NCBI GenBank assembly: GCA_903813345.2
Contig: CAIIXF020000007.1
Span: 29,001,564-29,065,563 of the forward strand
DNA: 64,000 nucleotides
Direction of reading: 5' to 3'
DNA from: Owenia fusiformis
Lineage: Eukaryota; Annelida; Polychaeta; Sabellida; Oweniidae
Below, one piece after another: positions 10,654-51,541 of the stretch (position 1 is its first letter; each line of letters begins with the position of its first letter). The translations under genes were made by a program, and so were the position numbers. Under the pieces are notes generated by a model, which saw nothing but the letters and a program-made list of their open reading frames with translations, searched no databases and was not told the DNA's origin.

Positions 10654-10952
10654 AGACTCCAGATTGAAAATCTGGAGTCTATTGTTTTTGCCTGTTTTCT
10701 TATTAGACTCCAGATGAAAATCTGGAGTCTATTGCTTTTGCCAGTTTTCTTATTAGACTCCAGATGAAAATCTGGAGTCTATTGCTTTCGTCAGTTTTCT
10801 TTATTATTATTATTATTATTAGACTCCAGATGAAAATCTGGAGTCTATTGCTTTCGTCAGTTTTCTTTATTATTAGACTCCAGATGAAAATCTGGAGTCT
10901 ATTGCTTTTGCCAGTTTTCTTTATTAGACTCCAGATTGAAAATCTGGAGTCT
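10654..10952 (+). repeat. Ladder of six 5' terminal hairpins
   Basis: Six hairpins start at 10654, 10705, 10765, 10821, 10875 and 10926. Each has an 11 bp stem (AGACTCCAGAT/ATCTGGAGTCT) and a 4-5 base loop. Each is followed by ATTGYTTTYG, a C/T-rich linker and TTATT, after which the next hairpin begins. Only the last runs on into a complete body. The other five look like 5' ends whose remainders were displaced downstream by later insertions. Linkers differ (GCCTGTTTTC, GCCAGTTTTC, GTCAGTTTTC), so they are not simply recent tandem copies of one unit. Confidence 0.7.
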
Positions 10953-13182
10953 ATTGTTTTTGCCTGTTTTCTTATTATTATTATTCTTTTTTCTTCCTCC
11001 TTACCAAATTTCTCGTCAACTATAACAGCTTACTTAATCCAACTTACATGGTTAACTTAAGACTGTATCCGGCTTTCTGGGAAATTAGGTCAAATTTTTA
11101 TCTAGGTCAAAGGTCAAGAACTAGGTCAAATCCAGTACTTTGTCACTTTTTCCCATTATCTCGGTCGTCCTTCAATATTTTTGATCCTGGTTTTTTTCAT
11201 TGTGTTCCTCATAAAAAAGTAGAAAACCTAGGGTCGATTTAGTTTTTTGGTATCTCAAACCGATTTCGAGATATCAGTGTCCGAAAACGAGGTCCAAAAA
11301 AAATTTCACCGAATCCAATGTCCAGGATATCAGTCTTATAGGAAATTTTCTCAGGATTCCGAATCTGAAAACCAAATTTCAATCTGACTTCCGGTTCAGA
11401 AGTTATGGCGTTTTGAAAATTCAAAAATCGCTAAATTTGGTGCCCCATGTTAATTCAATGGGAAAAAATATTTTTTTGAAGTGTAAAATACGAGATTTAG
11501 ACTAAGCACAGCTAAACATAATGGAAGCCCATAAAAGAAAGGGACCACAAGACCTTCTTTTCATAAAAATTTGGACACCAAAATGCCTAGGTCAAAATCT
11601 AGGTCAAATTCAAAGTTTTTCCTTATTTTTGCGATTCTGACACTACAGATTAATTATATTCTTCGAAAATTTGTATACATGTAGCCAAGAGTGTGCTAAT
11701 AGTGTTAGCCTTTTGCCGTCAGAAAGTATTTTGACCCACTTTTGAGATATGGTGTCCGAAAAGTAGGTCAAACTAAAAAGTTCTCCAAATTTAACATATG
11801 AGTTATGAATTAAGGGTAGAATTTTCTCAGGAATCCAAATCTGCAAACCAAATTTCAATCCGACTTTTGGTTTGGAATTTATGTCGTTTTGAAAGCTCAA
11901 AAATCGCTAAATTTGGTGCCCCATGTTATGGCAATGGGAAAAAAGATTTTTTTTGAAGTGTAAAATACGAGATAAACACTGAGTTCAGCTTCACATAATG
12001 AAAGCCTATAAAAGAAAGGGACCTCAAAAGCTAGCTAGCTTCACAATTTGGTCACCAAAATGCCTAGGTCAAAATCTAGGTCAAATTTATAGTTTTAACT
12101 TATTTTTGCGATTCTGACACTACACTTTAATTATTTGCTTCAAAAGTTTGTATACAAGTAGCAAAGAGTGTGCTAATAGTGTTAGCCTTTTGCCGTCAGA
12201 AAGTATTTTGACCCACTTTTGAGATATGGTGTCCGAAAAGTAGGTCAAAATAAAAAGTTCTCCAGATTCAACGTATGAGTTATGAATTAAGGGTAGAATC
12301 TTCTCAGGAATCCGAATCTGCAAACCAAATTTCGATCCGACTACCGGTTCGGAAGTTATGGCGTGTCCAAAAAGTAGGTCAAAATAAAAAAAATTCCAAA
12401 TTTAACGTATGAGTTATGAATTAGGGGTAGAATTTTGTCAGGAATCCAAATCTGCAAAAACAAATTACGATCCGACTTCCGGTTCGAAAGTTATGGGGTT
12501 TTGAAAGCTCAAAAATCGCTAAATTTGGTGCCCCATGTTATGTCAATGAGAAAAAGGATTTTTTGAAGTGTAAAATACCAGATAAAGACTGAGTACAGCT
12601 TAATATTCTGAAAGCCTATAAAAGGAGGGGACCTCGAAGGCTATCTAGCTTTAAAATTTGGACGCAAAAATGCCTTGGTCAAAATCTAGGTCAAATTCAT
12701 AGTTTTTCCTTATTTTTGCGATTCTGACATTACACTTTAAGGATTTGCTTCAAAAGTTTGTATACAGGTAGCAAAGAGTGTGCTTATAGTGTTAGCCTTC
12801 TGCCGTCAGAAAGTTTTTTGACCCACTTTTGAGATATGGTGTCCGAAATGTAGGTCAAAATAAAAAATTATCCAAATTTAACGTATGAGTTATGAATTAA
12901 GGGTAGTATTTTCTCAGGAATCAGAATCTTTAAACCAAATTTCGATCTAACTTCTGGTTAGATAGTTATAGCGGTTTGAAGTCTCGAAAAGTCGATATGA
13001 TGATATCCCCATGTTAAGCTAATAGAGTCGAAGATAGCCTTCTTAAAAGTTGTCTAAATGTCTATATTCTAGCTGACTCAGCTTATTCTGAATGACTCAG
13101 CTTACAAGTTCTGGATGACTCAGCTTAAAAAAAATGTGAAATCTGGAGTCTTAAATTGAACTTGTTCAATTTACATGTCTAG
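10926..13182 (+). mobile_element. Helitron-like element 1
   Basis: Contiguous from 5' hairpin to 3' end. The head carries a perfect AGGTCAAAGGTCA at 11104-11116. Three standard monomers follow (GCCGTCA near 11713, 12193 and 12800), with an extra partial unit between the second and third. The tail at about 13069-13128 has three GACTCAGCTTA units. The end is ATCTGGAGTCT, hairpin, ACATGTCTAG. Confidence 0.7.
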
Positions 13183-15000
13183 TTCTTTTTTCTTCCTCCT
13201 CACCAAATTTCTCGTTAACTATAACAGCTTACTTAATCCAACTTACATGGTTAACTAAGGACTGAATCCGGCTTTCTGGGAAATTAGGTCAAATTTTTAT
13301 CTAGGTCAAAGGTCAAGAACTAGGTCAAATCCGGTACTTTGTCACTTTTTCCCATTATCTCGGTCGTCCTTCAATATTTTTGATCCTGGTTTTTTTCATT
13401 GTGTTCCTCATAAAAAAGTAGAAAACCTAGGGTCGATTTAGTTTTTTGGTATCTCAAAGCGATTTCGAGATATCAGTGTCCGAAAACGAGGTCCAAAAAA
13501 AATTTCTCCGAATCCAATGTCCAGGATATCAGTCTTATAGAAAATTTTCTCAGGATTCCGAATCTGAAAACTAAATTTCGATCTGACTTCCGGTTCAGAA
13601 GTTATGGCGTTTTGAAAATTCAAAAATCGCTAAATTTGGTGCCCCATGTTAATTCAATGGGAAAAAATATTTTTTTGAAGTGTAAAATACGAGATATAGA
13701 CTAAGCACAACTAAACATAATGGAAGCCCATAAAAGAAAGGGACCACAAGACCTTCTTTTTATAAAAATTTGGACACCAAAATGCCTAGGTCAAAATCTA
13801 GGTCAAATTCAAAGTTTTTCCTTATTTTTGCGATTCTGACACTACAGATTAATTATATTCTTCGAAATTTTGTATACATGTAGCCAAGAGTGTGCTTATA
13901 GTGTTAGCCTTTTGCCGTCAGAAAGTATTTTGACCCACTTTTGAGATATGGTGTCCGAAAAGTAGGTCAAACTAAAAAATTCTCCAAATTTAACGTATGA
14001 GTTATGAATTAAGGGTAGAATTTTCTCAGGAATCCAAATCTGCAAACCAAATTTCAATCCGACTTTTGGTTTGGAAGTTAAGTCGTTTTGAAAGCTCAAA
14101 AATCGTTAAATTTGGTGCCCCATGTTATGGCAATGGGAAAAAAGATTTTTTTGAAGTGTAAAATACGAGATAAAGACTGAGTACAGCTTCACATAATGAA
14201 AGCCTATAAAAGAAAGGGACCTCAAAAGCTAGCTAGCTTCACAATTTGGTCACCAAAATGCCTAGGTCAAAATTTAGGTCAAATTTATAGTTTTAACTTA
14301 TTATTGCGATTCTGACACTACACTTTCATTATTTGCTTCAAAATTTTGTATACTGGTAGCAAAGAGTGTGCTAATAGTGTTAGCCTTTTGCCGTGAGAAA
14401 GTATTTTGACCCAATTTTGAGATATAGTGTCCGAAAAGTAGGTCAACATGAAAATTTCTCCAAATTTAACGTATGAGTTATGAATTAAGGGTAGAATTTT
14501 GTCAGGAATCCGAATCTGCAAATCAAATTTCAATCCGACACCCGGTGTGGAAGTAATGGTGTTTTGAAAAATTAAAAAATTGGTATTTTGATATCCAATG
14601 TTATGTCAATTATCTTTGTCACTATTTGTCGTTATTCCTTTATCTTTTTTTTCATCATGTAGCTTAAAGACAGTCCTTTCATTATTGTAACTGTCTTTTT
14701 TGATTACTCTTACCGATTTTGAGGAATGGCGTCCGGAAAGTAGGTCAACATAAAAAGTTCTCAAAATTTAATGTATGAGTTATGACACAAACGTAGAATT
14801 TTCTCAGAAATTCGAATCTGCAAACCAAATTTCGACCCAAATTCTGGTTAGATAGTTATAGCTGTTTGAAGTCTAGAAAAGTATTCTAGATAACTCAGCT
14901 TATTCCGAATGGCTCAGCTTACAGTATTTTGGATAACTCAGCTTAAAAAAAGTTTTAAATCTGGAGTCTTAAATTGAACTTGTTCAATTTACATGTCTAG
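13183..15000 (+). mobile_element. Helitron-like element 2 (5' hairpin upstream)
   Basis: The body begins directly after the CTAG of element 1 with TTCTTTTTTCTTCCTCC and has no 5' hairpin of its own. In the nested model its hairpin is the one at 10875. It has two standard monomers (13915, 14391) and a degenerate third block. The tail has DNA of the GACTCAGCTTA type at 14889-14945. It ends ACATGTCTAG. Confidence 0.65.
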
Positions 15001-17234
15001 TTATTATTATTCTTCTTCCTCCTTCCCAGATTTCTCACCAACTAGAAGAGCTTACTTTAAGCTGCTTACATGATTAACTAGGGAATGTATCTGGCTTTCT
15101 GGGAAATTAGGTCAAATTTTTATCTAGGTCAGAGGTCAAGAACTAGGTCAAATCCAGTACTTTGTCACTTTTTCCCATTATCTCGGTCGTCCTTCAATAT
15201 TTTTGATCCTGTTTTTTTTCATTGTGTTCCTCATAAAAAAGTAGAAAACCTAGGGTCGATTTAGTTTTTTGGTATCTCAAACCGATTTCGAGATATTAGT
15301 GTCCGAAAACGAGGTCCAAAAAAAATTTCACCGAATCCAATGTCCGGGATATCAGTCTTATAGGAAATTTTCTCAGAATTCCGAATCTGAAAACCAAATT
15401 TCGATCTGACTTCCGGTTCAGAAGTTATGGCGTTTTGAAAATTCAAAATCGCTAAATTTGGTGCCCCATGTTAATTCAATGGGAAAAAATATTTTTTTGA
15501 AGTGTAAAATACGAGATATAGACTAAGCACAGCTAAACATAATGGAAGCCCATAAAAGAAAGGGACCACAAGACCTTCTTTTCATAAAAATTTGGACACC
15601 AAAATGCCTAGGTCAAAATCTAGGTCAAATTCAAAGTTTTTCCTTATTTTTGCGATTCTGACACTACAGATTAATTATATTCTTCGAAAATTTGTATACA
15701 TGTAGCCAAGAGTGTGCTAATAGTGTTAGCCTTTTGCCGTCAGAAAGTATTTTGACCCACTTTTGAGATATGGTGTCCGAAAAGTAGGTCAAACTAAAAA
15801 GTTCTCCAAATTTAACGTATGAGTTATGAATTAGAGGTAGAATTTTATCAGGAATCTGAATCTGCAAACCAAATTTTGATTCGACCTCCTGTTCGGAAGT
15901 TATGGCGTTTTGAAAGCTCAAAAATCGCTAAATTTGCTGCCCCATGTTATGTCAATGGGAAAAAAGATTTTTTTTACGTGTAAAATACGAGATATAAACT
16001 GAGTACAGCTTAATATAATGAAAGCCTATTAAAGAAGGGGACCACGAAGGCTACTTAGCTTCAAAATTTGGACACCAAAATCCCTAGGTTAAAATCTAGG
16101 TCAAATTCATAGTTTTTCCTTATTTTTGCGATTCTGACACTATATTCAAATGATTTGCTTTAAAATTTTGTATACAGGTAGCAAAGAGTATGCTCATAGT
16201 GTTAGCCTTTTGCCGTCAGAAAGTATTTTGACCCACTTTTGAGATATGGTGTCCGAAAAGTAGGTCAAAATAAAAACTATCCAAATTTAATGTGTGAGAT
16301 ATGAATTAAAGGTATAATTTTCTCAGGAATCCAAATCTGCAAACCAAATTTCGATCCGACTTCTTGTTCTGAAGTTATGGCGTTTTGAAATCTCAAAAAT
16401 CGCTAAATTTGGTGCCCCATGTTAAATCAGTGGGACCGAATAATTTTTTGAAGTGTAAAAATACGAGATATAGAATGAGTACAGCTAAACATAATGAAAG
16501 CCCATAAAAGAAGGGGACCTCAAAAGCTACTTTCCTTCAAAATTTGGACACCAAAATACCTAGTTCAAAATCTAGGTCAAATTCTTAGTTTTTTCTTATT
16601 GTTGCAATTCGGACACTACACTTCAATGATATTCTTCGAAACTTTGTATACATGTAGCAAAGAGTGTGCTCATAACGTTAACTTGTTGCCGTCAAGAAGT
16701 GTTTTGACCCACTTTTGAGATATGGTGATCGAAATGTATGTCAAAATAAAAAGTTCTCCAAATTTAACGTATGAGTTATGAATTAGGGGTAGAATTTCCT
16801 AAGGAATCCGGATCTGAAATTAAAATTGCAATCCGACACCCGGCTAAGATTCTAAGCCATTTTGAAGTTTGAAATTCGCACTTGCCAGTACAGTATTCAC
16901 GATGCAGATTGATCAAATAAACTTTCAAAAATTCCTACATACCCTACTTTACCTCCCTACCTACTCAGCTACTTATTTGACTACTTACTCAATTGCTTAA
17001 TTAGTTATTACTTACTTAGCTACTTACTCAGCTACTAACTCAGGTACTTACTCAGCTACTTACTCAGCTACCTACTCAGCTTTTTACTCAGTTACTTACT
17101 CAGCTACTTACTCAACTACTACTAAGGTACTTACTCAGCTAATTACTCAGTTACTTACTCAGCTCTTTACTGATCTATCTAGGTCAAATAAATCTGGAGT
17201 CTTAAATTGAACTTGTTCAATTTCACAAATCTAG
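15001..17234 (+). mobile_element. Helitron-like element 3
   Basis: The body begins TTATTATTATTCTTCTTCC after the preceding CTAG. It has three standard monomers (15737, 16216, 16691). The tail is a degenerate CTACTTACTCAG simple repeat at about 16930-17170. The 3' end is the CACAAATCTAG subtype. The predicted displaced hairpin is at 10821. Confidence 0.65.
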
Positions 17235-17239
17235 TTATT

Positions 17240-19942
17240 AGACTCCAGATTGAAAATCTGGAGTCTATTGCTTTTGCCAGTTTTCTTATTATTATTATTC
17301 TCTCTTGTCACGTTTTCTCAGTAACTAGAAGACTTGGAGTAAATCTACTTACATGGTCAGTTAGGGTATGTGACCTAGTTTCTGGGAAATTAGGTCAAAT
17401 TTTTATCTAGGTCAAAGGTCAAAATCTAGGTCAAATTATCATTTTCTCAATTATCTTTGTCATTTTTCGATATTTTTTCAAAATTTTTTTTTCAACGTGT
17501 AGCCGAGAAAAAGACGATTCGACTGTGAGTAATCAATTTTTTGATTACTTTTACCGATTTTGAGATATTGCGTCCGGAAAGTAGGTCAAACGAAAAAGTT
17601 CTCCGAATTCAACGTATGAGTTATGAAATAAGTGTAAAATTTCCTCAGGAATCCAAATCTGCAAACCAAATTTCAATCTGACTTCCGGTTCGGAAGCTAT
17701 AGCGTTTTGAAATTGCTAAATTTGGTGCCCATGTAAAGCCAATGGGAAAAAAGACTTTTTCGAAGTGTAAAATACAAGATATAGACTGAGCACAGCTTAA
17801 CATAATGAATGTCCATAAAAGAAGGGGACCTCAAAAGCTACCTAGCTTCAAAATTTGGACACCAAAATGCCTAGGTCAAAATCTAGGTCAAATTCATAGT
17901 TTTTCCTTATTTTTGCGATTCTGGCACTACACTTTTAGGATTTGCTTCAAAATTTTGTATACAGGTAGCAAAGAGTGTGCTAATAGTGAGAGCCTTTTGC
18001 CGTCAGAAAGTATTTTGACCCACTTTTGAGATATGGTGTCCGTAAAGTAGGTCAAAATAAAAATTTCTCATAATTTAACTTATGAGTTATGAATTAAGGG
18101 TAGAATTTTCTCAGGAATCCGAATCTGCAAACCAAATTTCAATCCGACTTTTCGTTGGAAAGTTATGGCGTTTTAAAAGCTCAAAAATCGCTAATTTTGG
18201 TGCCCCATGTTATGTCAATGAGAAAAAAGATTTTTTTGAAGTGTAAAATACCAGATAAAGACTGAGTACAGCTTAAGATTCTGAAAGTCTATAAAAGAAG
18301 TGGACCTCGAAGGCTATCTAGCTTTAAAATTTGGACACCAAAATCCCTAGGTCAAAATCTAGGTCAAATACATATTTTTTGCTTATTTTTGCGATTCTGG
18401 CACTACACTTTTAGGATTTGCTTCAAAATTTTGTATAAAGGTAGCAAAGAGTGGGCTAATAGTGTTATCCTTTTGCCGTCAGAGAGTATTTTGACCCACT
18501 TTTGAGATATGGTGTCCGAAATGTAGGTCAAAATAAAAAATTCTCCAAATTTTACATATGAGTTATGAATTAAAAGTAGAATTTTCTCAGGAATCCGAAT
18601 CTGCAAACCAAATTTCGATCCGACTACCGGTTCCAAAGTTATGGCGTGTCCGAAAAGTAGGTCAAAATAAAAATTCGCCAAATTTAACGTATGAGTTATG
18701 AATAAGGGGTAGAATTTTGTCAGGAATCCGAATCTTTAAATCAAATTTCGATTCGACTTCCGGTTTGAAAGTTATGGCGTTTTGAAATTTCGAGAAAAAT
18801 CGATCTGATGTTATCCTGATAGAAAGTCAAGGAAAAAAGATTTTTTTGAAGTGTAAAATACGAGATATAGATTGAGTACAGCTTAAGATAATGAATTCCT
18901 ATAAAAGAAGGGGACCTCAAAAGCTACCTAGTTTCAATATTTGGACACCAAAATGCCTAGGTCAAAATCTAGGTCAAATCCATAGTTTTTCCTTATTTTT
19001 GCGATTCTGGCACTACACTTTTAGGATTTGCTTCAAAATTTTGTATACAGGTAGCAAAGAGTGTGCTAATAGTGTTAGCCTTTTGCCGTCAGGAAGTATT
19101 TTGACCCACTTTTGAGATATGGTGTCCGTAAAGTAGGTCTAAATAAAAATTTCTTATAATTTAACTTATGAGTTATGAATTAAGGGTAGAATTTTCTCAG
19201 GAATCCGAATCTGCAAACCAAATTTCAATCCGACTTTTCGTTGGGAAGTTATGGCGTTTTGAAAGCTCAAAAATCGCTAATTTTGGTGCCCCATGTTATG
19301 TCAATGAGAAAAAAGATTTTTTTGAAGTGTATAATACCAGATAAAGACTGAGTACAGCTTAAGATTCTGAAAGTCTATAAAAGAAGGGGACCTCGAAGGC
19401 TATCTAGCTTTAAAATTTGGACACCAAAATCCCTAGGTCAAAATCTAGGTCAAATACATAGTTTTTCCTTATTTTTGCGATTCTGGCACTACACTTTTAG
19501 GATTTGCTTCAAAATTTTGTATACAGGTAGCAAAGAGTGGGCTAATAGTGTTAGCCTTTTGCCGTCAGAGAGTATTTTGACCCACTTTTGAGATATGGTG
19601 TCCGAAAAGTAGGTAAAAATAAAAAATTCTCCAAATTTTACATATGAGTTATGTATTAAGAGTAGAATTTTCTCAGGAATCCGAATCTGCAAACCAATTT
19701 TCGATCAAACTTCTGGTTAGATAGTTATAGCGGTTTGAAGTCTCGAAAAGTCGATATGATGATATTCCCATGTCATGCATATGGAGTCGAAGATAACATT
19801 CTTAAGAGTTGTCTAAATGTCTATATTCTAGCTGACTCAGCTTATAGTGAATGACTCAGCTTACAAGTAATTGGATGACTCAGCTTAAAACAAGTCTTAA
19901 ATCTGGAGTCTTAAATTGAACTTGTTCAATTTACATGTCTAG
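17240..19942 (+). mobile_element. Helitron-like element 4 (contiguous, internal duplication)
   Basis: It has its own 5' hairpin at 17240-17266, and linker and head run on without interruption. There are four monomers (17998, 18475, 19086, 19560). The second pair repeats the first at an offset of about 1088 bp, indicating an internal two-monomer duplication. The tail has GACTCAGCTTA units near 19828-19890. It ends ACATGTCTAG. Confidence 0.7.
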
Positions 19943-22788
19943 TTATTATTATTCTTTCAGAATCTTCCTCCTTCCCAGATTTCTCACCAACTAAAAGAAT
20001 TTACTTTAAGCTGCTTACATGATCAACTAGGGGCAGTACCTGGGATGATGGGAAATTAGGTCAAATTTTTATCTAGGTCAAGGGTCAAGAACTAGGTCAA
20101 ATCAAGGTCAAATCAACATTCTGTCAATTATCTTCGTTGTTGTTTGTCGTAACTACTTCATCTTAGTTTCTACATGTAGCTTAGAAAAAAACAAATCGAG
20201 AGTGTGCCATCCGTTTTTTGATTACTCTTAGCGATTTTGAGATATGGCGTCCTGAAAGTAGGTCAAAACCAAAAAGTTCTCCAGATTTAACATATGAGCT
20301 ATGAAATAAGAGTAGAATTTTCTCAGGAATCCGAATCTGCAAACCAAATTTTGATCCGACTTCCCGTTCGGAAGTTATGGCGTTTTGAAAGCTCAAAAAT
20401 CGCTAAATTTGGTGCCCCATGTAAAGTCAATGGGAAAAAAGATTTTTTTGAAGTGAAAAATACGAAACATAGACTGAGTTCAGCTAAATATAATGAAAGC
20501 TTTTAAAAGAAGGGGACCTCATAAGCCATCTAGCTTCAAAATTTGGACACCAAAATGCCTAGGTCAAAATCTAGGTCAAATTCAAAGTTTTTCCTTATTT
20601 TTGCGATTCTGACACAACAGATTAATTATATTCTTCGAAATTTTGTATACATGTAGCTAAGAATCTGCTCATAGTGTTAGCCTTTTGCCGTCAGAAAGTA
20701 TTTTGCCCCATTTTTGAGATATGGTGTCCGAAAAGTAGGTCAAAATAAAAAATTCTCAAAATTTGACGTTTGAGTTATGAATTAAGTATAGAATTTTCTA
20801 AGGAATCCGAATCTGCAAACCAAATTTCGATCCGACTTCCGGTTTGGAAGTTATGGCGTGTCCGAAAAGTAGGTCAAAATAAAAAGTTTCCAAATTTAAC
20901 GTATGAGCTATGAATTAAGGATAAAATTTTCTCTGGAATCCAAATCTGCAAACCAAATTTCGATCCGACTTCCGGTTCGGAAGTTATGGCGTTTTGAAAG
21001 CTCAAATATCGCTTAATTTGGTGCCCCATGTTATGTCAATGGGAAAAAATATTTTTTTGAAGTGTAAAATACGAGATATAGACTAAGTACCGCTAAACAT
21101 AATGGAAGCCCATAAAAGAAGGGGACCTCAAAACCTTCTAATTTTGAAAATTTGGACAACAAAATGCCTAGGTCAAAATCTAGGTCAAATTCAAAGCTTT
21201 TCCTTATTTTTGCGATTCTGACACTACACTTTAATTATATTCTTCGAAATTGTGTATACTTGTAGCCAAGAGTGTGCTAATAGTGTTAGCCTTTTGCCGT
21301 CAAAAAGTATTTTGACCCACTTTTGAGATATGGTGTCCCAAAAGTAGGTCAAAATAAAAAAATCTTCAAATGTAACGTATGAGTTATGAATAAGGGGTAG
21401 AATTTTATCAGGAATCCGAATCTGCAAATCAAATTTTGATTCGACCTCCTGTTCGGAAGTTATGGTGTTTTGAAAGCTCAAAAATCGCTAAATTTGCTGC
21501 CCCATGTTATGTCAATGGGAAAAAAGATTTTTTTGAAGTGTAAAATACGAGATATAGACTGAGTACAGCTTAATATAATGAAAGCCTATTAAAGAAGGGG
21601 ACCTCGAAGGCTACTTAGCTCCAAAATTTGGACACCAAAATGCCTAGGTCAAAATCTAGGTCAAATTTATAGTTTTCCCTTATTTTTGTGATTCTGACAC
21701 TATATTTAAATGATATGCTTTAAAATTTTGTATACAAGTAGCAAAGAGTATGCTAATAGTGTTAGCCTTTTGCCGTCAGAAAGTATTTTGACCCACTTTT
21801 GAGATATGGTGTCCGAAAAGTAGGCCAAAGTTAAAAGTTTTCCAAATTTAACGTATGAGTTATGAATTAAGGGTAGAATTTTCTCAGAAATCTAGATCTG
21901 CAAACCAAATTTCGATCCGACTACTTGTTTTGAAGTTATGGCGTTTTGTAATCTCAAAAATCGCTAAATTTGGTGCCCCATGTTAAATCAATGGGACCGA
22001 ATAATTTTTTGAAGTATAAAAATACGAGATATAGAATGAGTACAGCTAAACATAATGAAAGCCCATAGAAGAAGGGGACCTCAAAAGCTACTTTCCTTCA
22101 AAGTTTGGACACCAAAATACCTAGTTCAAAATCTAGGTCAAATTCATAGTTTTTTTTATTTTGCGATTCTGACACTACACTTCAATGATATTCTCCGAAA
22201 TTTTGTAAACTTGTAGCAAAGAGTGTGCTAATAATGTTAACATTTTGCCGTCAATAAGTTTTTTGACCCACTTTTGAGATATGGTGTCCGAAATGTAGGT
22301 CAAAATAAAAAGTTCTCCAATTTTAAAGTATGAGTTATGAATTAGGGGTAGAATTTCCTAAGGAATCTGGATCTGAAATTAAAATTGCAATCCGACCCCC
22401 GGTTTAGATTCTACACCATTTTGAAGTTTGAAATTCACACTTGCCAGTATTCACGATGCAGATTGATCAAATATACTTTCAAAAATTCCTGCATACCCTA
22501 CTTTACCTCTCTACCTACTCAGCTACTTATTTGACTACTTACTCAATTACTTAATTAGTTATTACTTCCTTAGCAACTTACTCAGCTACTAACTCAGGTA
22601 CTTACTCAGCTACTTACTCAGCTACCTACTCAGCTTTTTACTCAGTTACTTACTCAGCTACTTACTCAACTACTACTAAGGTACTTACTCAGCTTATTAC
22701 TCAGTTACTTACTCAGCTCTTTACTGATCTATCTAGGTCAAATAAATCTGGAGTCTTAAATTGAACTTGTTCAATTTCACAAATCTAG
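19943..22788 (+). mobile_element. Helitron-like element 5 (segmentally duplicated type)
   Basis: The body starts TTATTATTATTCTTTCAGAA. The head differs from most: it has AGGTCAAGGGTCA and an extra TCAAGGTCA. Four monomers (20686, 21296, 21772, 22246) have spacings of about 610, 476 and 474 bp. The CTACTTACTCAG repeat lies at about 22496-22733 and the end is CACAAATCTAG. Elements 6 and 17 are near-identical relatives. Confidence 0.65.
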
Positions 22789-26437: not shown

Positions 26438-26445
26438 TTATTATT

Positions 26446-35174: not shown

Positions 35175-35188
35175 TTATTATTATTATT

Positions 35189-40226: not shown

Positions 40227-40231
40227 TTATT

Positions 40232-40368: not shown

Positions 40369-42288
40369 ATTGTTTTTGCCTGTTTTCTTATTATTATTAT
40401 TCTTTTTTCTTCCTCCTTACCAAATTTCTCGTCAACTATAACAGCTTACTTAATCTAACTTACATGGTTAACTTAAGACTGTATCCGGCTTTCTGGGAAA
40501 TTAGGTCAAATTTTTATCTAGGTCAAAGGTCAAGAACTAGGTCAAATCCAGTACTTTGTCACTTTTTCCCATTAACTCGGTCGTCCTTCAATATTTTTGA
40601 TCTTGGTTTTTTTCATTGTGTTCCTCATAAAAAAGTAGAAAACCTAGGGTCGATTTAGTTTTTTGGTATCTCAAACCGATTTCGAGATATCAGTGTCCGA
40701 AAACGAGGTCCAAAAATTTTTTCTCCGAATCCAATGTCCAGCATATCAGTCTTATAGGAAATTTTCTCAGGATTCCGAATCTGAAAACCAAATTTCAATC
40801 TGACTTCCGGTTCAGAAGTTATGGCGTTTTGAAAATTCAAAAATCGCTAAATTTGGTGCCCCATGTTAATTCAATGGGAAAAAATATTTTTTTGAAGTGT
40901 AAAATACGAGATATAGACTAAGCACAGCTAAACATAATGGAAGCCCATAAAAGAAAGGGACCACAAGACCTTCTTTTCATAAAAATTTGGACACCAAAAT
41001 GCCTAGGTCAAAATCTAGGTCAAATTCAAAGTTTTTCCTTATTTTTGCGATTCTGACACTACAGATTAATTATATTCTTCCAAATTTTGTATACATGTAG
41101 CCAAGAGTGTGCTAATAGTGTTAGCCTTTTGCCGTCAGAAAGTATTTTGACCCACTTTTGAGATATGGTGTCCGAAAAGTAGGTCAAACTAAAAAGTTCT
41201 CCAAATTTAACGTATGAGTTATGAATTAAGGGTAGAATTTTCTCAGGAATCTGAATCTGCAAACCAAATTTCAATCCGACTTTTGGTTTGGAAGTTATGT
41301 TGTTTTGAAAGCTCAAAAATCGCTAAATTTGGTGCCCCATGTTATGGCAATGGGAAAAAAGATTTTTTTGAAGTGTAAAATACGAGATAAAGACTGAGTA
41401 CAGCTTCACATAATGAAAGCCTATAAAAGAAAGGGACCTCAAAAGCTAGCTAGCTTCACAATTTGGTCACCAAAATGCCTAGGTCAAAATCTAGGTCAAA
41501 TTTATAGTTTTAACTTATTTTTGCGATTCTGACACTACACTTTAATTATTTGATTCAAAATTTTGTATACAGGTAGCAAAGAGTGTGCTAATAGTGTTAG
41601 CCTTTTGCCGTCAGAAAGTATTTTGACCCACTTTTGAGATATAGTGTCCGAAAAGTAGGTCAACATGAAAGTTTCTCCAAATTTAACGTATGAGTTATGA
41701 ATTAAGGGTAGAATTTTCTCAGAAATCCAAATCTGCAAATCAAATTTCAATCCGACACCCGGTTTGGAAGTAATGGCGTTTTGAAAAATTAAAAAATTGG
41801 TATTTTGATATCCCATGTTATGTCAATTATCTTTGTCACTATTCGTCGTTATTCCTTTCTCTTTTTTCATCATGTAGCTTAAAGACAGTCCTTTCATTAT
41901 TGTAACTGTCTTTTTTGATTACTCTTACCGATTTTGAGGAATGGCGTCCGGAAAGTAGGTCAACATAAAAAGTTCTCAAAATTTAATGTATGAGTTATGA
42001 CACAAACGTAGAATTTTCTCAGAAATTTGAATCTGCAAACCAAATTTCGACCCAAATTCTGGTTAGATAGTCATAGCTGTTTGAAGTCTCGAAAAGTCGA
42101 TATTATGATATCCCCATGTTAAGCCAATGTAGACGAAGATAAGCTACTTAAGAGTTGTCTAAATGTCTGTATTCTAGATGACTCAGCTTATTCTGAATTT
42201 TTCAGCTTACAGTATTTTGGATGACTCAGCTTAAAAAAAGTTTTAAATCTGGAGTCTTAAATTGAACTTGTTCAATTTACATGTCTAG
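40342..42288 (+). mobile_element. Helitron-like element 15
   Basis: Contiguous from the third hairpin. The head and first monomers match element 1. It has two monomers (41128, 41607), then a block resembling the end of element 2. The tail has GACTCAGCTTA units near 42170-42235. It ends ACATGTCTAG. Confidence 0.65.
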
Positions 42289-43954
42289 TTATTATTATTT
42301 TTTTTCTTATTCTTCCTCCTTACAAGATTTCTCACCAACTAGAAAAACTTACTTTAAGCTGCTTACATGATCAACTAGGGAATGTATCTGGGATTATGGG
42401 AAATTAGGTCAAATTTTTGTATAGGTCAAAGGTCAAGAACTAGGTCAAATCCAGTACTTTGTCACTTTTTCCCATTATCTCGGTCGTCCTTCAATATTTT
42501 TGATCCAGGTTTTTTTCATTGTGTTCCTCATAAAAAAGTAGAAAAGCTAGGGTCGATTTAGTTTTTTGGTATCTCAAACCGATTTCGAGATATCAGTGTC
42601 CGAAAACGAGGTCCAAAAAAAAGTTCTCCGAATCCAATGTCCAGGATATCAGTCTTATAGGAAATTTTCTCAGGATTCCGAATCTGAAAATCAAATTTCG
42701 ATCTAACTTCCGGTTTAGAAGTTATGGCGTTTTGAAAATTCAAAAATCGCTAAATTTGGTGCCCCATGTTAATTCAATTGGAAAAAATATTTTTTTGAAG
42801 TGTAAAATACGAGATATAGACTAAGCACAGCTAAACATAATGGAAGCCCATAAAAGAAAGGGACCTCAAGACCTTCTTTTCATAAAAATTTGGACACCAA
42901 AATGCCTAGGTCAAAATCTAGGTCAAATTCAAAGTTTTTCCTTATTTTTGCAATTCTGACACTACAGATTAATTATATTCTTCGAAATTTTGTATACATG
43001 TAGCCAAGAGTGTGCTTATAGTGTTAGCCTTTTGCCGTCAGAAAGTATTCTGACCCACTTTTGAGATATGGTGTCCGAAAAGTAGGTCAAAATAAAAATT
43101 TCTCCAAACTCAACGTATGAGTTATGAATTAAGGATAGAATTTTCTCAGGAATCCGAATCTGCAAACTAAATTTCGATCCGACTTCCCGTTCGGAAGTTA
43201 TGGTGTTTTGAAATTTTGAGAAAAATCGATCTGATGGTATCCTGATAGAAAGTCAAGGAAAAAAGATTTTTTTTGAAGTGTAAAATACGAGATATAGACT
43301 GAGTACAGCTTAAGATAATGAATTCCTATAAAAGAAGGGGACCTCAAAAGCTACCTAATTTCAATATTTGGACACCAAAATGCCTAGGTCAAAATCTAGG
43401 TCAAATTCATAGTTTTTCCTTATTTTTAAGATTCTGGCACTACACTTTTAGGATTTGCTTCAAAATTTTGTATACATGTAGAAAAGAGTGTGCTAATAGT
43501 GATAGCCTTTTGCCGTCAGAAAGTATTTTGACCCATTTTGAGATATGGCGTCCTAAAAGTGGGTCAAAATAAAAATATCTCCAAATTTAATGTATGAGTT
43601 ATGAAATAAGGGTAGAATTTTCCCAGAAATCTGAATCTGCAAACTAAATTTCAATCCGACTTTCGGTCAAAAATTCCTACTTACCTACCTACCTACATAC
43701 CTACTCGGCTACCTACTTGGCTACCTACTTAGCTACCTACTTCTCGGCTACCTACTCAGCTACTTACTCAGCTACCTACTCAGCTACCTACTCAGCTGCT
43801 TACTCAGCTTCCTTCTCAGCTACCTACTCAGCGACTCACTCAATTACTTAATCATCTACTTACTCAGCTTGCTACTCAGTTACTTACTCAGCTACCTACT
43901 CAAGCAAATCAATCTGGAGTCTTAAATTGAACTTTGTTCAATTTACCAATCTAG
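42289..43954 (+). mobile_element. Helitron-like element 16
   Basis: No hairpin of its own. The body starts after CTAG with TTATTATTATTTTTTTTC. It has two monomers (43035, 43514). The CTACTTACTCAG repeat lies at about 43670-43910. The 3' end is a variant, with loop TTT and ACCAATCTAG. Confidence 0.6.
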
Positions 43955-46382
43955 TTATTATTATTCTTTCAGAATCTTCCTCCTTCCCAGATTTCTCACC
44001 AACTAAAAGAATTTACTTTAAGCTGCTTACATGATCAACTAGGGGCAGTACCTGGGATGATGGGAAATTAGGTCAAATTTTTATCTAGGTCAAGGGTCAA
44101 GAACTAGGTCAAATCAAGGTCAAATCAACATTCTGTCAATTATCTTCGTTGTTGTTTGTCGTAACTACTTCATCTTAGTTTCTACATGTAGCTTAGAAAA
44201 AAACAAATCGAGTGTGTGCCATCCGTTTTTTGATTACTCTTAGCGATTTTGAGATATGGCGTCCTGAAAGTAGGTCAAAACCAAAAAGTTCTCCAGATTT
44301 AACATATGAGCTATGAAATAAGGGTAGAATTTTCTCAGGAATCCGAATCTGCAAACCAAATTTTGATCCGACTTCCCGTTCGGAAGTTATGGCGTTTTGA
44401 AAGCTCAAAAATCGCTAAATTTGGTGCCCCATGTAAAGTCAATGGGAAAAAAGATTGTTTTGAAGTGAAAAATACGAAACATAGACTGAGTTCAGCTAAA
44501 TATAATGAAAGCTTTTAGAAGAAGGGGACCTCATAAGCCATCTAGCTTCAAAATTTGGACACCAAAATGCCTAGGTCAAAATCTAGGTCAAATTCAAAGT
44601 TTTTCCTTATTTTTGCGATTCTGACACAACAGATTAATTATATTCTTCGAAATTTTGTATACATGTAGCTAAGAATCTGCTCATAGTGTTAGCCTTTTGC
44701 CGTCAGAAAGTATTTTGCCCCATTTTTGAGATATGGTGTCCGAAAAGTAGGTCAAAATAAAAAATTCTCAAAATTTGACGTTTGAGTTATGAATTAAGTA
44801 TAGAATTTTCTCAGGAATCCGAATCTGCAAACCAAATTTCGATCCGACTTCCGGTTTGGAAGTTATGGCGTGTCCGAAAAGTAGGTCAAAATAAAAAAGT
44901 TTCAAATTTAACGTATGAGCTATGAATTAAGGATAGAATTTTCTCTGGAATCTAAATCTGCAAACCAAATTTCGATCCGACTTCCGGTTCGGAAGTTATG
45001 GCGTTTTGAAAGCTCAAAAATCGCTAAATTTGGTACCCCATGTTATGTCAATGGGAAAAAATATTTTTTTGAAGTGTAAAATACGAGATATAGACTAAGT
45101 ACAGCTAAACATAATGGAAGCCCATAAAAGAAGGGGACCTCAAAACCTTCTAATCTTGAAAATTTGGACAACAAAATGCCTAGGTCAAAATCTAGGTCAA
45201 ATTCAAAGCTTTTCCTTATTTTTGCGATTCTGACACTACACTTTAATTATATTCTTCGAAATTGTGTATACATGTAACCAAGAGTGTGCTAATAGTGTTA
45301 GCCTTTTGCCGTCAAAAAGTATTTTGACCCACTTTTGAGATATGGTGTCCCAAAAGTAGGTCAAAATAAAAAAATCTTCAAATGTAACGTATGAGTTATG
45401 AATAATGGGTAGAATTTTATCAGGAATCCGAATCTGCAAATCAAATTTTGATTCGACCTCCTGTTCGGAAGTTATGGTGTTTTGAAAGCTCAAAAATCGC
45501 TAAATTTGGTGCCCCATGTTATGTCAATGGGAAAAAATTTTTTTTTGAAGTGTAAAATACGAGATATAGACTGAGTACAGCTTAATATAATGAAAGCCTA
45601 TCAAAGAAGGGGACCTCGAAGGCTACTTAGCTCCAAAATTTGGACACCAAAATGCCTAGGTCAAAATCTAGGTCAAATTTATAGTTTTCCCTTATTTTTG
45701 CGATTCTGACATTATATTTAAATGATTTGCTTTAAAATTTTGTATACAGGTAGCAAAGAGTATGCTAATAGTGTAAGCGTTTTGCCGTCAGAAAGTATTT
45801 TGACCCACTTTTGAGATATGGTGTCCGAAAAGTAGGCCAAAGTTAAAAGTTTTCCAAATTTAACGTATGAGTTATGAATTAAGGGTAGAATTTTCTCAGA
45901 AATCTAGATCTGCAAACCAAATTTCGATCCGACTACTTGTCCTGGAGTTATGGCGTTTTGAAATCTCAAAAATCGCTAAATTTGGTGCCCAATGTTAAAT
46001 CAATGGGACCGAATAATTTTTTGAAGTATATAAATACGAGATATAGAATGAGTACAGCTAAACATAATGAAAGCCCATAGAAGAAGGGGACCTCAAAAGC
46101 TACTTTCCTTCAAAGTTTGGACACCAAAATACCTAGTTCAAAATCTAGGTCAAATTCATAGTTTTTTTATTTTGCGATTCTGACACTACACTTCAATGAT
46201 ATTCTCCGAAATTTTGTAAACTTGTAGCAAAGAGTGTGCTAATAATGTTAACGTTTTGCCGTCAATAAGTTTTTTGACCCACTTTTGAGATATGGTGTCC
46301 GAAATGTAGGTCAAAATAAAAAGTTCTCCAATTTTAAAGTATGAGTTATGAATTAGGGGTAGAATTTCCTCAGGAATCCGGA

Positions 46383-47520
46383 GGGTGTCTACAAAACTAA
46401 GACCTAAGACCTAAGACCTACAAAACTAAGACCCCTACGTAATAAAACTAAGACCCTGTTATAAAACTAAGACCCCCACGTTATAAAACTAAGACCCTGT
46501 TATAAAACTAAGACCCCCCACGTAATAAAACTAAGACCCTGTTATAAAACTAAGACCCCCCACGTAATAAAACTAAGACCCTGTTATAAAACTAAGACCC
46601 CCACGTAATAAAACTAAGACCCTGTTATAAAACTAAGACCCCTCACGCTATAAAACTAAAACCCCCCACGTAATAAAACTAAGACCCTGTTATAAAACTA
46701 AGACCCCCCACGTTATAAAACTAAGACCCTGTTATAAAACTAAGACCCCCCACGTAATAAAACTAAGACCCTGTTATAAAACTAAGACCCCCCACGTTAT
46801 AAAACTAAGACCCTGTTATAAAACTAAGACCCTCCACGTAATAAAACTAAGACCCTGTTATAAAACTAAGACCCCCACGTTTTAAAACTAAGACCCTGTT
46901 ATAAAACTAAGACCCCCCACGTAATAAAACTAAGACCCTGTTATAAAACTAAGACCCCCCACGTAATAAAACTAAGACCCTGTTATAAAACTAAGACCCT
47001 CCACGTAATAAAACTAAGACCCTGTTATAAAACTAAGACCCCCCACGTTATAAAACTAAGACCCTGTTATAAAACTAAGACCCCCCACGTAATAAAACTA
47101 AGACCCTGTAATAAGACTAAGACCCCCCACGTAATAAAACTAAGACCCTGTTATAAAACTAAGACCCCCCCACGTTTTAAAACTAAGACCCTGTTATAAA
47201 ACTAAGACCCCCCACGTAATAAAACTAAGACCCTGTTATAAAACTAAGACCCCCCACGTAATAAAACTAAGACCCTGTTATAAAACTAAGACCCTCCACG
47301 TAATAAAACTAAGACCCTGTTATAAAACTAAGACCCCCCACGTTATAAAACTAAGACCCTGTTATAAAACTAAGACCCCCCACGTAATAAAACTAAGACC
47401 CTGTTATAAAACTAAGACCCCCCCACGTTATAAAACTAAGACCCTGTTATAAAACTAAGACCCCCCACGTTGTAAAACTAAGACCCTGTTATAAAACTAA
47501 GACCCTGTTATAAAACTAAG
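46383..47520 (+). repeat. Foldback left arm: tandem AAAACTAAGACC units
   Basis: The outermost 50 bases have shorter units (AAGACCTAAGACCTA, CAAAACTAAGACC). The arm then settles into a two-part unit of about 42 bp, AAAACTAAGACCCTGTTAT plus AAAACTAAGACCCCCCACGTAAT. Variation is mostly in C-run length (4-7), ACGTAAT versus ACGTTAT, and a few CCTCC changes. ACGT occurs in almost every second unit. Confidence 0.85.
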
Positions 47521-48149
47521 AATCAATCATCGTGCCTTGCTCTGCTCGCGAGGTAGTCTTGCCTCTGGCACATGTGTTCCCCAGTAACATACAGATTCTA
47601 CAAAAGATAGTCTTATAGATATAGATATAAAGATTAGCTTAAGGTCTTGGAGAAGTTATTCGAAATTTACACCAAACAGGAAATTAAAAAACCATGTGAT
47701 TTTAGATTTTTTGAACTAAGATAGCAGAGTTCTGCTTTGATCTTCTGTCATTTTTACTACTCCCATTTATCATTTACATGACCAGGATCACAATGGTCAT
47801 GTCAAAATGACCCTAACCATGCTGAAATGGTTTTTCAGCCCTCTGAAAATGTGACTGAAAAAAAGTTAAAAGTAAGGGTATCGGTAAGTCACTGAACATA
47901 ATATTTTGATTTTTTCAGAAAATGTGCCCAATATATTGCTTCAAATGATAGGAGCTTTGAAAATAAGAAAAATTGTCTGAAACAAAAATTGTGGTCAGAT
48001 AAAGGAAAATAGACCTCTTTTCAAATAATTTTTTTCATTTTTTTTCATTTTTTCTCTAGACTATTTCTAGAAATTTAATCAAAATTTCAAAGCTCCTATC
48101 ATTTAGAGCAATATGTTGGACACATTTTCTGAAAAATTCAAAATATTCT
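47521..48149. repeat. Foldback central spacer with inner palindrome
   Basis: A non-coding spacer between the arms. Its right part is itself an imperfect inverted repeat. The stretch at about 47902-47966 (with CAGAAAATGTGCCCAATATA and GATAGGAGCTTTGAAA) is repeated inverted at about 48075-48147. The left part (GTGCCTTGCTCTGCTCGCGA, 47530 onward) is unlike anything else in the window. Confidence 0.7.
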
Positions 48150-49216
48150 GGGGGGGTCTTAGTTTTATAACAGGGTCTTAGTTTTATTACGTGGGGGTCT
48201 TAGTTTTGTAACAGTGTCTAAGTTTTATAACGTGGGGGTCTTAGTTTTATAACAGGGTCTTAGTTTTATTACGTGGGGGGGGGTCTTAGTTTTATAACAG
48301 GGTCTTAGTTTTATAACGTGGGGGGTCTTAGTTTTGTAACAGGGTCTTAGTTTTATAACATGGGGGGTCTTAGTTTTATAACGTGAGGGGTCTTAGTTTT
48401 ATAACAGGGTCTTAGTTTTATAACGTGGGGGGTCTTAGTTTTGTAACAGGGTCTTAGTTTTATAACGTGGGGGGTCTTAGTTTTATAACAGGGTCTTAGT
48501 TTTATAACGTGGGGGGGTCTTAGTTTTATTACGTGGGCGGTCTTAGTTTTATAACAGGGTCTTAGTTTTATTACGTGGAGGGTCTTAGTTTTATTACGTG
48601 GAGGGTCTTAGTTTTATAACAGGGTCTTAGTTTTATTACAGGGTCTTAGTTTTATAACGTGGGGGGGTCTTAGTTTTATAACAGGGTCTTAGTTTTATAA
48701 CGTGGGGGGTCTTAGTTTTATAACAGGGTCTTAGTTTTATTACGTGGGGGGTCTTAGTTTTATAACAGGGTCTTAGTTTTATAACGTGGGGGGTCTTAGT
48801 TTTATAACAGGGTCTTAGTTTTATTACGTGGAGGGTCTTAGTTTTATAACGTGGGGGTCTTAGTTTTATAACAGGGTTTTAGTTTTATTACGTGGGGGGT
48901 CTTAGTTTTATAACAGGGTCTCAGTTTTATTACGTGGGGGGTCTTAGTTTTATAACAGGGCCTTAGTTTTATAACGTGGGGGGGTCTTAGTTTTATTACG
49001 TGGGTGGTCTTAGTTTTATAACAGGGTCTTAGTTTTATAACGTGGGGGTCTTAGTTTTATAACAGGGTCTTAGTTTTATTACATGGGGGGTCTTAGTTTT
49101 ATAACAGGGTCTTAGTCTTATAACGTGGGGGGTCTTAGTTTTATAACAGGGTCTTAGTTTTATTACGTGGGGGGTCTTAGTTTTGTAGGTCTTAGGTCTT
49201 AGTTTTGTAGACACCC
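48150..49216 (-). repeat. Foldback right arm, inverted
   Basis: The complement of the left-arm units (GGTCTTAGTTTTATAACAGG and GGTCTTAGTTTTATTACGTGGG). It is about 70 bases shorter than the left arm, with units lost or rearranged (for example two ACGTGGAGGG units in a row near 48580). It ends TTTTGTAGACACCC. Confidence 0.85.
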
Positions 49217-49643
49217 GGAATCCGGATCTGAAATCAAAATTGCAATCCGACCCCCGGTTTAGATTCTACGCCATTTTGAAGTTTGAAATTCGCACTTGCC
49301 AGTATTCACGATGCAGATTGATCAAATATACTTTCAAAAATTCCTGCATACCCTACTTTACCTCTCTACCTACTCAGCTACTTATTTGACTACTTACTCA
49401 ATTACTTAATTAGTTATTACTTACTTAGCAACTTACTCAGCTACTAACTCAGATACTTACTAAGCTACTTACTCAGCTACCTACTCAGCTATTTACTCAG
49501 TTACTTACTCAGCTACTTACTCAACTACTACTAAGGTACTTACTCAGCTAATTACTCAGTTACTTACTCAGCTCTTTACTGATCTATCTAGGTAAAATAA
49601 ATCTGGAGTCTTAAATTGAACTTGTTCAATTTCACAAATCTAG

Positions 49644-51541
49644 TTATTATTCTTCTTTCTTTCTTCCTCCTAACAGATTTTCTCTCCAACTATAACATCT
49701 TACTTAATCCAACCTACATGGTTGACTAGGGAATGTATCTGGCTTTCTGGGAAATTAGGTCAAATTTTTATCTAGGTCATAGGTCAAGAACTAGGTCAAA
49801 TCTTGGATTTTCACTAATTCACCACTTTTCTCAGTCGGCTTTCAATATTTTTGCTCCGGGTTTTTTTCATCATGTTCCTTGGAAAAAACGCTAATTCCGT
49901 AAGGCAAATCGTTTTTTGATCACTCTTACCGATTTTGAGATATTGCGTCCGAAAAGTAGGTCAGAACAAAAAGTTCTCCAAATTCAACATGTGAGTTATG
50001 AAATAAGTGTAGAATGATCTCAGGAATCCGAATCTGCAAACCAAATTTGGATCGGACTTCCGGTTCGGAAGTTATGGCGTTTTGAAAGCTCAAAATTCGC
50101 TAAATTTGGTGCCTATGTTAAGTCAATGGGAAAAAAGACTTTTTCGAAGTGTAAAATACAAGATATAGACTGAGTACAGCTTAACATAATGAATGCTTAT
50201 AAAAAAAATTGACCTCAAAAGCTACATAGCTTCAAAATTTGGACACCAAAATACCTAGGTCAAAATCTAGGTCAAATTTATAGTTTTTCCTTATTTTTAT
50301 GATTCTGACACTACACTTTAATAATTTACTTCAAAATTTTGTATACAGGTAGCAAAGAGTGTGCTAATAGTGTTAGCTTTTTGCCGTCAGAAAGTATTTT
50401 GACCCACTTCTAAGATATGGTGTCCGAAAAGTAGGTCAAAATGAAAAGTTCTCCAAATTTAACATATGAGCTATGAATTAAGGGTAGAATTTTCCCAGGA
50501 ATCCGAATCTGCAAACCAAATTCCAATCCGACTTTCGGTTCGGAAGTTATGGCGTTTTGAAAGCTCAAAAATCGCTAAATTTGGTGCCCCATGTTATGTC
50601 AATGAGAAAAAAGATTTTTTTGAAGTGTAAAATACCAGATATAAACTGAGTACAGCTTAACATTCTGAAAGCCTATAAAAGAAGGGGACCTCGAAGGCTA
50701 TCTAGCTTTAAAATTTGGACACCAAAATTCCTAGGTCAAAATCTAGGTCAAATTTATAGTTTTTCCTTATTTTTGCGATTCTGACATTACACTTTAATGA
50801 TTTGCTTCGAAATTTTGTATACAGGTAGCAAAGAGTGTGCTCATAGTGTTAGCCTTCTGCCGTCAGAAAGTATTTTGACCCACTTTTGAGAAATAGTGTC
50901 CGAAAAGTAGGTCAACATGAAAGTTTCTCCAAATTTAACGTATGAGTTATGAATTAAGGGTAGAATTTTCTCAGGAATCCGAATCTGCAAATCAAATTTC
51001 AATCCGACACCCGGTTTGGAAGTAATGGCGTTTTGAAAAATTAAAAAATTGGTATTTTGATATCCCATGTTATGTCAATTATCTTTGTCACTATTCGTCG
51101 TTATTCCTTTATCTTTTTTTCATCATGTAGCTTAAAGACAGTCCTTTCATTATTGTAACTGTCTTTTTTGATTACTCTTACCGATTTTGAGGAATGGCGT
51201 CCGGAAAGTAGGTCAACATAAAAAGTTCTCAAAATTTAATGTATGAGTTATGACACAAACGTAGAATTTTCTAAGAAATTAGAATCTGCAAACCAAATTT
51301 CGACCTAAATTCTGGTTAGATAGTTATAGCTGTTTGAAGTCTCGAAAAGTCGATATTATGATATCCCCATGTTAAGCCAATGTAGACAAAGATAAGCTAC
51401 TTAAGAGTTGTCTGAATGTCTGTATTCTAGATGACTCAGCTTATTCTGAATGGCTCAGCTTACAGTATTTTGGATGACTCAGCTTAAAAAAAGTTTTAAA
51501 TCTGGAGTCTTAAATTGAACTTGTTCAATTTACAAGTCTAG
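49644..51541 (+). mobile_element. Helitron-like element 18, last of the array
   Basis: The body starts TTATTATTCTTCTTTC after CTAG. The head has AGGTCATAGGTCA in place of the usual AGGTCAAAGGTCA. It has two monomers (50385, 50870). The tail at about 51425-51487 has GACTCAGCTTA units. It ends TACAAGTCTAG, directly followed by TTATAAATG of the right flank. No 5' hairpin is left to pair with it. Confidence 0.65.

Follow-up and report, generated by a model that had tools for sequence, protein, structure and literature searches.

A 64,000-nucleotide stretch of the 498-Mb genome of Owenia fusiformis (C7:29001564-29065563; hereafter the window) contains an array of transposable elements that, judged by their sequence, are best read as non-autonomous Helentron-like (HINE) elements. 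The arrangement of their parts, together with that of related arrays elsewhere in the genome, indicates that a TTATT slot behind the 5' hairpin of a resident copy, of the same family or of a relative, repeatedly receives new HINE insertions, with slippage and duplication explaining part of the imbalance between hairpins and bodies, a reading to which we assign a probability of about 0.9. The array was first noticed in a first-pass annotation, which described it as elements nested behind their own hairpins by self-targeting of a TTATT hot spot. Nesting is upheld by independent arrays, by the same-strand order of the copies and by a consistent target motif, but the slot is not strictly the element's own.

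Layout of the array

The window holds 17 5' hairpins (10652 to 40368) and 18 3' ends (13182 to 51541) in a single orientation and in bracket order, a count from the first pass that was reproduced on recounting. Each of the 17 hairpins has the form AGACTCCAGAT-loop-ATCTGGAGTCT, and each of the 18 3' ends consists of a subterminal repeat, a palindrome of the TTGAACTTGTTCAA type with small variants, and CTAG. All 18 ends lie on the + strand, and a scan of the - strand of the window for 3' ends found none; because the hairpins are near-palindromic, their orientation was read from the linker behind each. Seven of the 18 bodies stand directly behind a hairpin and the other 11 start straight after the CTAG of the previous element, the position given in the first pass for bodies without a hairpin. 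From an initial six, the bracket depth comes down to zero at 40226, and only the last end takes it below zero, to -1. As a check on chance, the hairpin core (with at most 3 mismatches) gave 8 matches in the window and the 3' end 11, with none in 100 shuffles for either. The parts of the array are as follows.

10652..10680, +, 5' hairpin 1, linker a, outermost; probable partner the last body, 49644-51541
10703..10730, +, 5' hairpin 2, linker b; bracket partner body 22789-26437
10753..10780, +, 5' hairpin 3, linker c; bracket partner body 19943-22788
10819..10846, +, 5' hairpin 4, linker c; bracket partner body 15001-17234
10873..10900, +, 5' hairpin 5, linker b; bracket partner body 13183-15000
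10924..13182, +, complete element: hairpin 6, linker a, body type A, 3' end
13183..15000, +, hairpin-less body, type A, beginning straight after the previous CTAG
15001..17234, +, hairpin-less body, type B
17238..19942, +, complete element, linker b, body type C
19943..22788, +, hairpin-less body, type B
22789..26437, +, hairpin-less body, type B
26444..26472, +, 5' hairpin, linker b; partner body 31612-33827 (type D3)
26498..26526, +, 5' hairpin, linker d; partner body 30184-31611 (type E)
26558..28374, +, complete element, linker d, body type E
28378..30183, +, complete element, linker d, body type E
30184..31611, +, hairpin-less body, type E
31612..33827, +, hairpin-less body, type D3
33831..35174, +, complete element, linker f, body type I
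35187..35215, +, 5' hairpin, linker d, cut at TTATT; partner body 36745-38153
35250..36744, +, complete element, linker d, body type E
36745..38153, +, hairpin-less body, type E, continuing hairpin 35187
38154..40226, +, hairpin-less body, type B, which most likely lost its hairpin
40230..40257, +, 5' hairpin, linker c; partner body 43955-49643
40287..40314, +, 5' hairpin, linker b; partner body 42289-43954
40340..42288, +, complete element, linker a, body type A
42289..43954, +, hairpin-less body, type B
43955..49643, +, hairpin-less body, type B, broken by an unrelated insert (46383-49216)
49644..51541, +, hairpin-less body, type A2, with the array's last 3' end; unmatched by plain bracket pairing

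Three junctions at which a split element can be rejoined, cited in the first pass as a linker test for nesting, are all present. When the linker of the hairpin at 35189 is joined to the body at 36745, 99 of 104 positions match the uninterrupted element at 26560, with zero differences in the linker, the microsatellite and the first body bases; the pairs 26500 with 30184 and 26446 with 31612 join likewise, judged by eye. In each case the joined halves of the split element restore an intact linker.

Pairing of ladder hairpins with hairpin-less bodies

If arrays grow by nesting, the hairpins of a ladder should pair with the bodies downstream in reverse order, that is, last in, first out. A total of 32 loci were read for this and the following analyses: the window, and 31 loci on contig C1 (20 first taken as single or near-single, and 11 arrays), chosen as single-looking copies and clusters from the first 100 hairpins and ends listed on that contig. 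An association between linker type and body type is seen in the 52 elements in which a hairpin stands next to its body: type A bodies carry linker a in six of seven cases and type A2 in one of one, types B, C, D, D2 and D3 carry linker b (19/19), type E linker d (11/11), type F linker e (7/7), and type I linker f in two of four. In the pairing test, ladder linkers were scored against hairpin-less bodies, with adjacent pairs from other loci only as the training set. An initial clustering by overall similarity failed to keep the body types apart; in its place, bodies were classed by hand from motifs at their start, before the test was run, and seven stretches without a recognised body start were dropped (five flanks and one foreign element behind ends, and one foreign element behind a hairpin).

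Over 50 pairs in 13 loci, last-in-first-out pairing scores -79.2, a value reached by none of 20,000 within-array shuffles (mean -110.6, best -80.0), whereas first-in-first-out pairing scores -115.3, no better than shuffles. Without the window the score is -60.1 against a best shuffle of -61.6, again reached by 0 of 20,000, and without the largest array, A1, 30 of 20,000 shuffles reach the observed score. A head-to-tail concatemer or ladder-amplification model was rejected on this comparison. The clearest single case is A5, with eight hairpins and eight bodies, where the last-in-first-out partners are b-B, b-B, a-A, g-I and d-I; the g-I combination lies outside the training set, and a foreign element occupies one slot.

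Target site and slot

When the outer flanks of a locus are joined, they give the target T(T/A)A|TTA(T) at the 28 first hairpins used of 32, with T at -3 in 28/28, A at -1 in 27/28, TT at 0/+1 in 28/28 and A at +2 in 25/28. Four loci (S_L018, A7, A11 and S_L004) were dropped from this tally, because the last end was not the outer border or the flank was a broken hairpin. The TT at 28 of 28 sites is read from joined flanks, and it may have been duplicated on insertion. First insertions have differing flanks, and the element itself carries, in its own linker some 18-40 nt behind the hairpin, a (TTA)n run of several such target sites.

Of 107 hairpins in the loci read, 32 are first in their locus. 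Among the 75 later ones, a linker precedes 55 and a 3' end precedes 17; two follow ends missed by the scan (one truncated, one foreign), one is unclear, and none lies inside a body. This distribution does not follow from the abundance of the heptamer TWATTAT, which occurs 92 times in bodies and 177 times in the 90 nt that follow hairpins or ends: if every site were used equally, some 20 of 74 hairpins should lie in bodies, and the chance of finding none there is about 1e-10, so the slot is favoured beyond its heptamer. The evidence that the slot is preferred over other (TTA)n sites is weaker. On C1 below 19.93 Mb, 22 of 53 hairpins stand in a family slot, compared with 3 hits seen in other (TTA)n runs, which offer 41 intact sites; these are sites at a distance of more than 150 bp from every listed hairpin and end, and some may sit in decayed copies. 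The comparison gives p 1e-4, rising to 0.06 if the 9 first insertions left unread in that region were all also in (TTA)n.

The slot is shared with relatives. Subfamilies insert in one another's linkers, and a second HINE-like family, with the hairpin AGAATGCCG..CGGCATTCT, a (TTA)n run of its own following that hairpin and a GTCTAG 3' end, occupies the first family's slot in A5 (L030/L031, C1:3.414-3.431 Mb), directly behind a type-a hairpin. A pattern search places second-family hairpins behind first-family hairpins at 29 places, and the second family has 12 ladder-like matches of its own, one of which, on C11, has a linker unlike the others. Near C1:22612750 (L023), a related element with the hairpin TGATTTTTGCTT..AAGCAAAAATC begins directly after a first-family 3' end.

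Balance of hairpins and bodies across the genome

Genome-wide searches for exact patterns, which give lower bounds, found 2,632 hairpins and 2,415 3' ends, with no match to reversed-pattern controls. There are 964 hairpin-to-hairpin junctions at ladder spacing 25-55 (smaller spacings are missed by the pattern) and 370 places where a hairpin adjoins a CTAG end, together at least 1,334; both junction patterns need one hairpin arm only, so that some of their matches may fall outside the 2,632 hairpins. The first 100 hairpins listed on C1 comprise 46 ladder steps, 9 hairpins behind a 3' end and 45 that are neither, and all 60 neighbouring pairs among them less than 30 kb apart lie on the same strand. 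Neighbouring hairpin matches are present on several contigs. These counts and junctions make the window array one of many.

The 16 loci with more than two marks contain 91 hairpins, 93 recognised 3' ends and 96 typed bodies. Hairpin and body counts per locus are correlated (Pearson 0.97, Spearman 0.72), being equal in 6 of 16 loci and within one of each other in 13 of 16:

Hairpins/bodies: A1 24/25; window 17/18; A5 8/8; A7 6/6; A8 4/4; A6 3/3; L020 2/2; L018 2/2; A9 4/5; A10 3/4; A12 4/3; L019 2/1; L015 1/2; A3 4/8; A4 2/4; A11 5/1

The largest array, A1, spans 53 kb; one of its 25 bodies has a truncated 3' end that the scan missed. It was first read as two pieces with bracket sums of +6 and -6, and the open brackets close across a gap of about 10 kb, where a scan detected neither a hairpin nor a recognised end of the family. 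The last bodies of A7 and L018 lack a recognised end.

The unmatched 18th end of the window had been attributed to a lost hairpin or a segmental duplication. Plain bracket pairing assigns hairpin 1 (linker a) to the type B body at 38154, a combination seen in none of 8 type-B training elements, linker a being found with the single type A2 training element and with six of seven of the related type A. The excess is best explained by loss of the hairpin of body 38154, after which hairpin 1 would pair with the last body (A2) and the association would be restored, a choice made post hoc. Under this pairing the outer flanks of the array join as TATAA|TTATAA. In A10 the surplus body has an adjoining neighbour that is 99.93% identical to it, and both processes, loss in the window and duplication in A10, seem to occur.

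The nature of the elements

From 5' to 3', an element consists of a hairpin, formed by an 11-12 nt subterminal repeat with its inverse, then a linker, (TTA)n/(TTC)n, a body, an inverse subterminal repeat, a 3' palindrome and CTAG. Four features of HINE elements are present: 11-12 nt subterminal inverted repeats (AGACTCCAGAT at the 5' and ATCTGGAGTCT at the 3' end), an inverse repeat beside the 5' copy (in the 17 window hairpins), a palindrome of the TTGAACTTGTTCAA type after the 3' copy, and central tandem repeats in the bodies with units of about 476, 133, 12 and 5 nt. Canonical Helitrons end in a hairpin followed by CTRR, and the family has a palindrome followed by CTAG at this end, with A|TT at 27 of the 28 target sites used of 32. 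The 5' end is TTAGACTCC, in place of the 5' TC that, with an AT target, is listed as canonical in excerpts of a study of fungal Helitrons (PMC5148889).

Candidate sources of the transposition enzyme are present. The genome contains 58 Helitron_like_N matches, a minority of which were read; three of the regions were followed up for their domains, and none was tied to the ends of the family. A long open frame at C5:12.40-12.41 Mb (L052 + L054) has matches to OTU, DUF6570 and Herpes_teg_N, then to Helitron_like_N, PIF1 and Exo_endo_phos, and is apparently an intact Helentron-type coding region; Helitron_like_N, PIF1 and Exo_endo_phos also occur together at C1:4.67 Mb, and Helitron_like_N with PIF1, without an endonuclease match, at C10:10.9 Mb. 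The two Helitron_like_N matches on C1 (4.67 and 21.1 Mb) are separated by tens of kilobases from any listed hairpin or end. A11 has the longest body read, 8.3 kb, which lacks a closed open reading frame of 150 amino acids.

Other features of the window

Body 17 of the array is interrupted by a 2.83-kb insert (46383-49216) that looks like a MULE- or foldback-type element. Its terminal inverted repeat, GGGTGTCTACAAAACTAAGACC, is perfect, the 10-nt direct repeat GGAATCCGGA flanks it on both sides, and long tandem arrays lie near its ends, subterminal and inverted relative to each other. Downstream of the array are a 450-amino-acid open frame (57807-59159), a putative non-LTR reverse transcriptase as judged by eye from its translation, and a tandem repeat array of 8.7 copies of a 239-bp unit (59740-61784).

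Proposed mechanism

An element with the preferred target T(T/A)A|TTAT would offer, behind its own hairpin, a run of the very sites into which others of its kind insert. A newcomer would enter this slot in the same orientation as its host, because the target site is strand-specific. The hairpin and linker stub of the host would stay upstream, and the host body would be pushed downstream, where it would now follow directly after the CTAG of the newcomer. Repeated rounds would yield ladders of hairpins followed by runs of hairpin-less bodies that pair with them in last-in-first-out order, and slippage of the roughly 50-nt hairpin ladder, with duplication of bodies, would add part of the imbalance. 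We infer that each step was made by insertion and by no other process, and the enzyme would presumably come from a Helentron-type Rep/helicase.

A more specific version, in which the resident 5' hairpin rather than (TTA)n alone selects the slot, with a hairpin-bound enzyme cutting the adjacent TTATT run and feeding new circles in, is possible but doubtful. It is suggested by the lack of nested hairpins in bodies (0/74) despite 92 heptamers there, and by the 22 of 53 hairpins in family slots. If it were true, every resident copy would be a port for its own and related families, and more than half of insertions would use such ports (55 of the first 100 listed hairpins on C1).

Nested insertion would have wider consequences. 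It would show how rolling-circle-type transposons could build large one-stranded blocks while leaving bodies unbroken, and the bracket order would record relative insertion age within an array, a rare internal clock. Multi-hairpin 5' ends, which might otherwise be mistaken for many elements or for tandem repeats, would become explainable, and the choice of target site by Helentrons directly testable.

Weighing the evidence

Several points weigh against nested insertion. Within the window by itself, 1,378 of 20,000 shuffles reach the last-in-first-out score, and the linker test is there only suggestive; the claim rests on the pooled arrays, where the 12 other loci carry it, and with both the window and A1 removed 117 of 20,000 shuffles reach the score. 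Only 32 of the 50 last-in-first-out pairs are linker-body combinations seen in training, compared with 21 of 50 for first-in-first-out pairing and a mean of 22.6 and maximum of 31 among 5,000 shuffles. Linker c never stands beside its own body in the training set, and the body classes were set by hand after the arrays had been read and reverse-order matches noticed. The array borders were likewise drawn by the author, and five loci and the A1 gap were extended after open bodies or brackets had been noticed; as these extensions were made where something stood open, balance was favoured. Even so, 3 of the 16 loci are off by more than one (A3 4/8, A4 2/4 and A11 5/1), the count for A11 being partial, since a further body begins after its last end and was left unread. 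In A7, three type-c hairpins, of which two share one 34-nt linker, are set against only two type-B bodies ahead of the type-G body, and L019 has two identical hairpin-linker units with one end and one body between unrelated flanks. Finally, no autonomous copy with the ends of the family was found in seven Rep-helicase regions read upstream, three of them also downstream: the parts read gave matches to the 5' arm (with at most 2 errors) but no 5' hairpin, and scans of the 3' tails of three regions for CTAG and inverted repeats gave no match to the family's end. The nesting proposed in the first pass is supported but not the whole account, in that slippage or duplication also alters ladders and bodies (A7 and A10).

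Part of this irregularity could come from other processes. In composite transposition, a transfer starts at an outer hairpin and stops at an inner 3' end, carrying a multi-hairpin, single-body unit whole, so that ladders would be brought along and not built on the spot; the duplicated units and single body of L019 between unrelated flanks count in its favour, the Fusarium FoHelis elements are a precedent (excerpts of PMC5148889), and it may explain single loci with surplus hairpins such as L019. As the origin of the arrays it is very unlikely, yielding neither downstream hairpin-less bodies nor near balance. Rolling-circle amplification, through concatemers or truncated circles, is a published mechanism (review PMC12628747, in excerpt) that should leave many 5' hairpins and few 3' ends, as in L019 (2/1), A12 (4/3) and, as far as read, A11 (5/1). 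The near balance of 91 hairpins to 96 bodies over 16 loci, and of 2,632 to 2,415 exact patterns genome-wide, runs counter to this expectation, as does the reverse-order match of mixed-linker ladder hairpins to later bodies in the pooled arrays, and we give it a very slim chance.

Segmental or tandem duplication with unequal exchange has in its favour the nearly identical body pairs of A10 (99.93%) and A1 (99.86%, at a distance of 43.5 kb), three neighbouring same-type pairs in the window at 96.6-98.7% identity, and the identical ladder units of A7. Most neighbouring bodies in the 16 loci nevertheless differ in type (57 of 80 pairs), 18 of the 22 same-type neighbours compared are at 82-95% identity (best local alignment), the flanks of first insertions differ, and mixed subfamilies are ordered by brackets; that duplication built the arrays is highly improbable. 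In favour of nesting, a hairpin-less body on C1 is 99.4% identical to the body of the complete element at 40340..42288. Such repeats are hard to assemble, and the arrays are known from the assembly alone, yet we can give almost no credence to an assembly artefact, given that the same grammar recurs in independent C1 arrays, that 964 ladder junctions exist and that neighbouring hairpins occur on several contigs.

Relation to known systems

HINE elements have been described in oyster and Drosophila (excerpts of PMC7492417 and PMC4067079), and the Owenia family resembles these HINE/DINE-1 elements, including the oyster Cg_HINE, in its subterminal inverted repeats (11-13 nt), 5' inverse repeat, 3' palindrome, central satellite-like repeats, microsatellite and TT-type target. 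Unlike the elements in those excerpted descriptions, it forms hairpin ladders and bracket nests, and has a (TTA)n landing run right behind the 5' hairpin. With canonical Helitrons it shares the CTAG end and the A|TT target, and differs in a 5' end that is not TC.

The first pass knew of no description of this mode of growth. No account of bracket-nested arrays behind a 5' hairpin was found in the open-licence part of PMC, but self-insertion as such had already been proposed for Fusarium Helitrons. According to excerpts of that work (PMC5148889, Fig. 7 legend), FoHelis have repeated short 5' ends, for which self-insertion is proposed, followed by movement of composites with one 3' end, and three tandem copies in Metarhizium were read as a double insertion in the 5' end or as a rolling-circle product. 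The Owenia arrays share with FoHelis the short duplicated 5' ends and self-insertion as a proposed cause; FoHelis show multiple 5' ends with a single 3' end, whereas many Owenia loci have whole matching bodies that follow in reverse order. Plant centromeric Helitron arrays (Xiong et al. 2016, as cited in excerpts of PMC12628747 and PMC6591975) also have multiple 5' ends, which are ascribed to rolling-circle amplification of truncated units, in contrast to the nesting favoured here. In SaTar MULE arrays, as in Owenia, several families stack by landing in microsatellites, but the excerpted account (PMC5907723) explicitly calls those arrays non-nested, and the Owenia arrays are nested and one-stranded.

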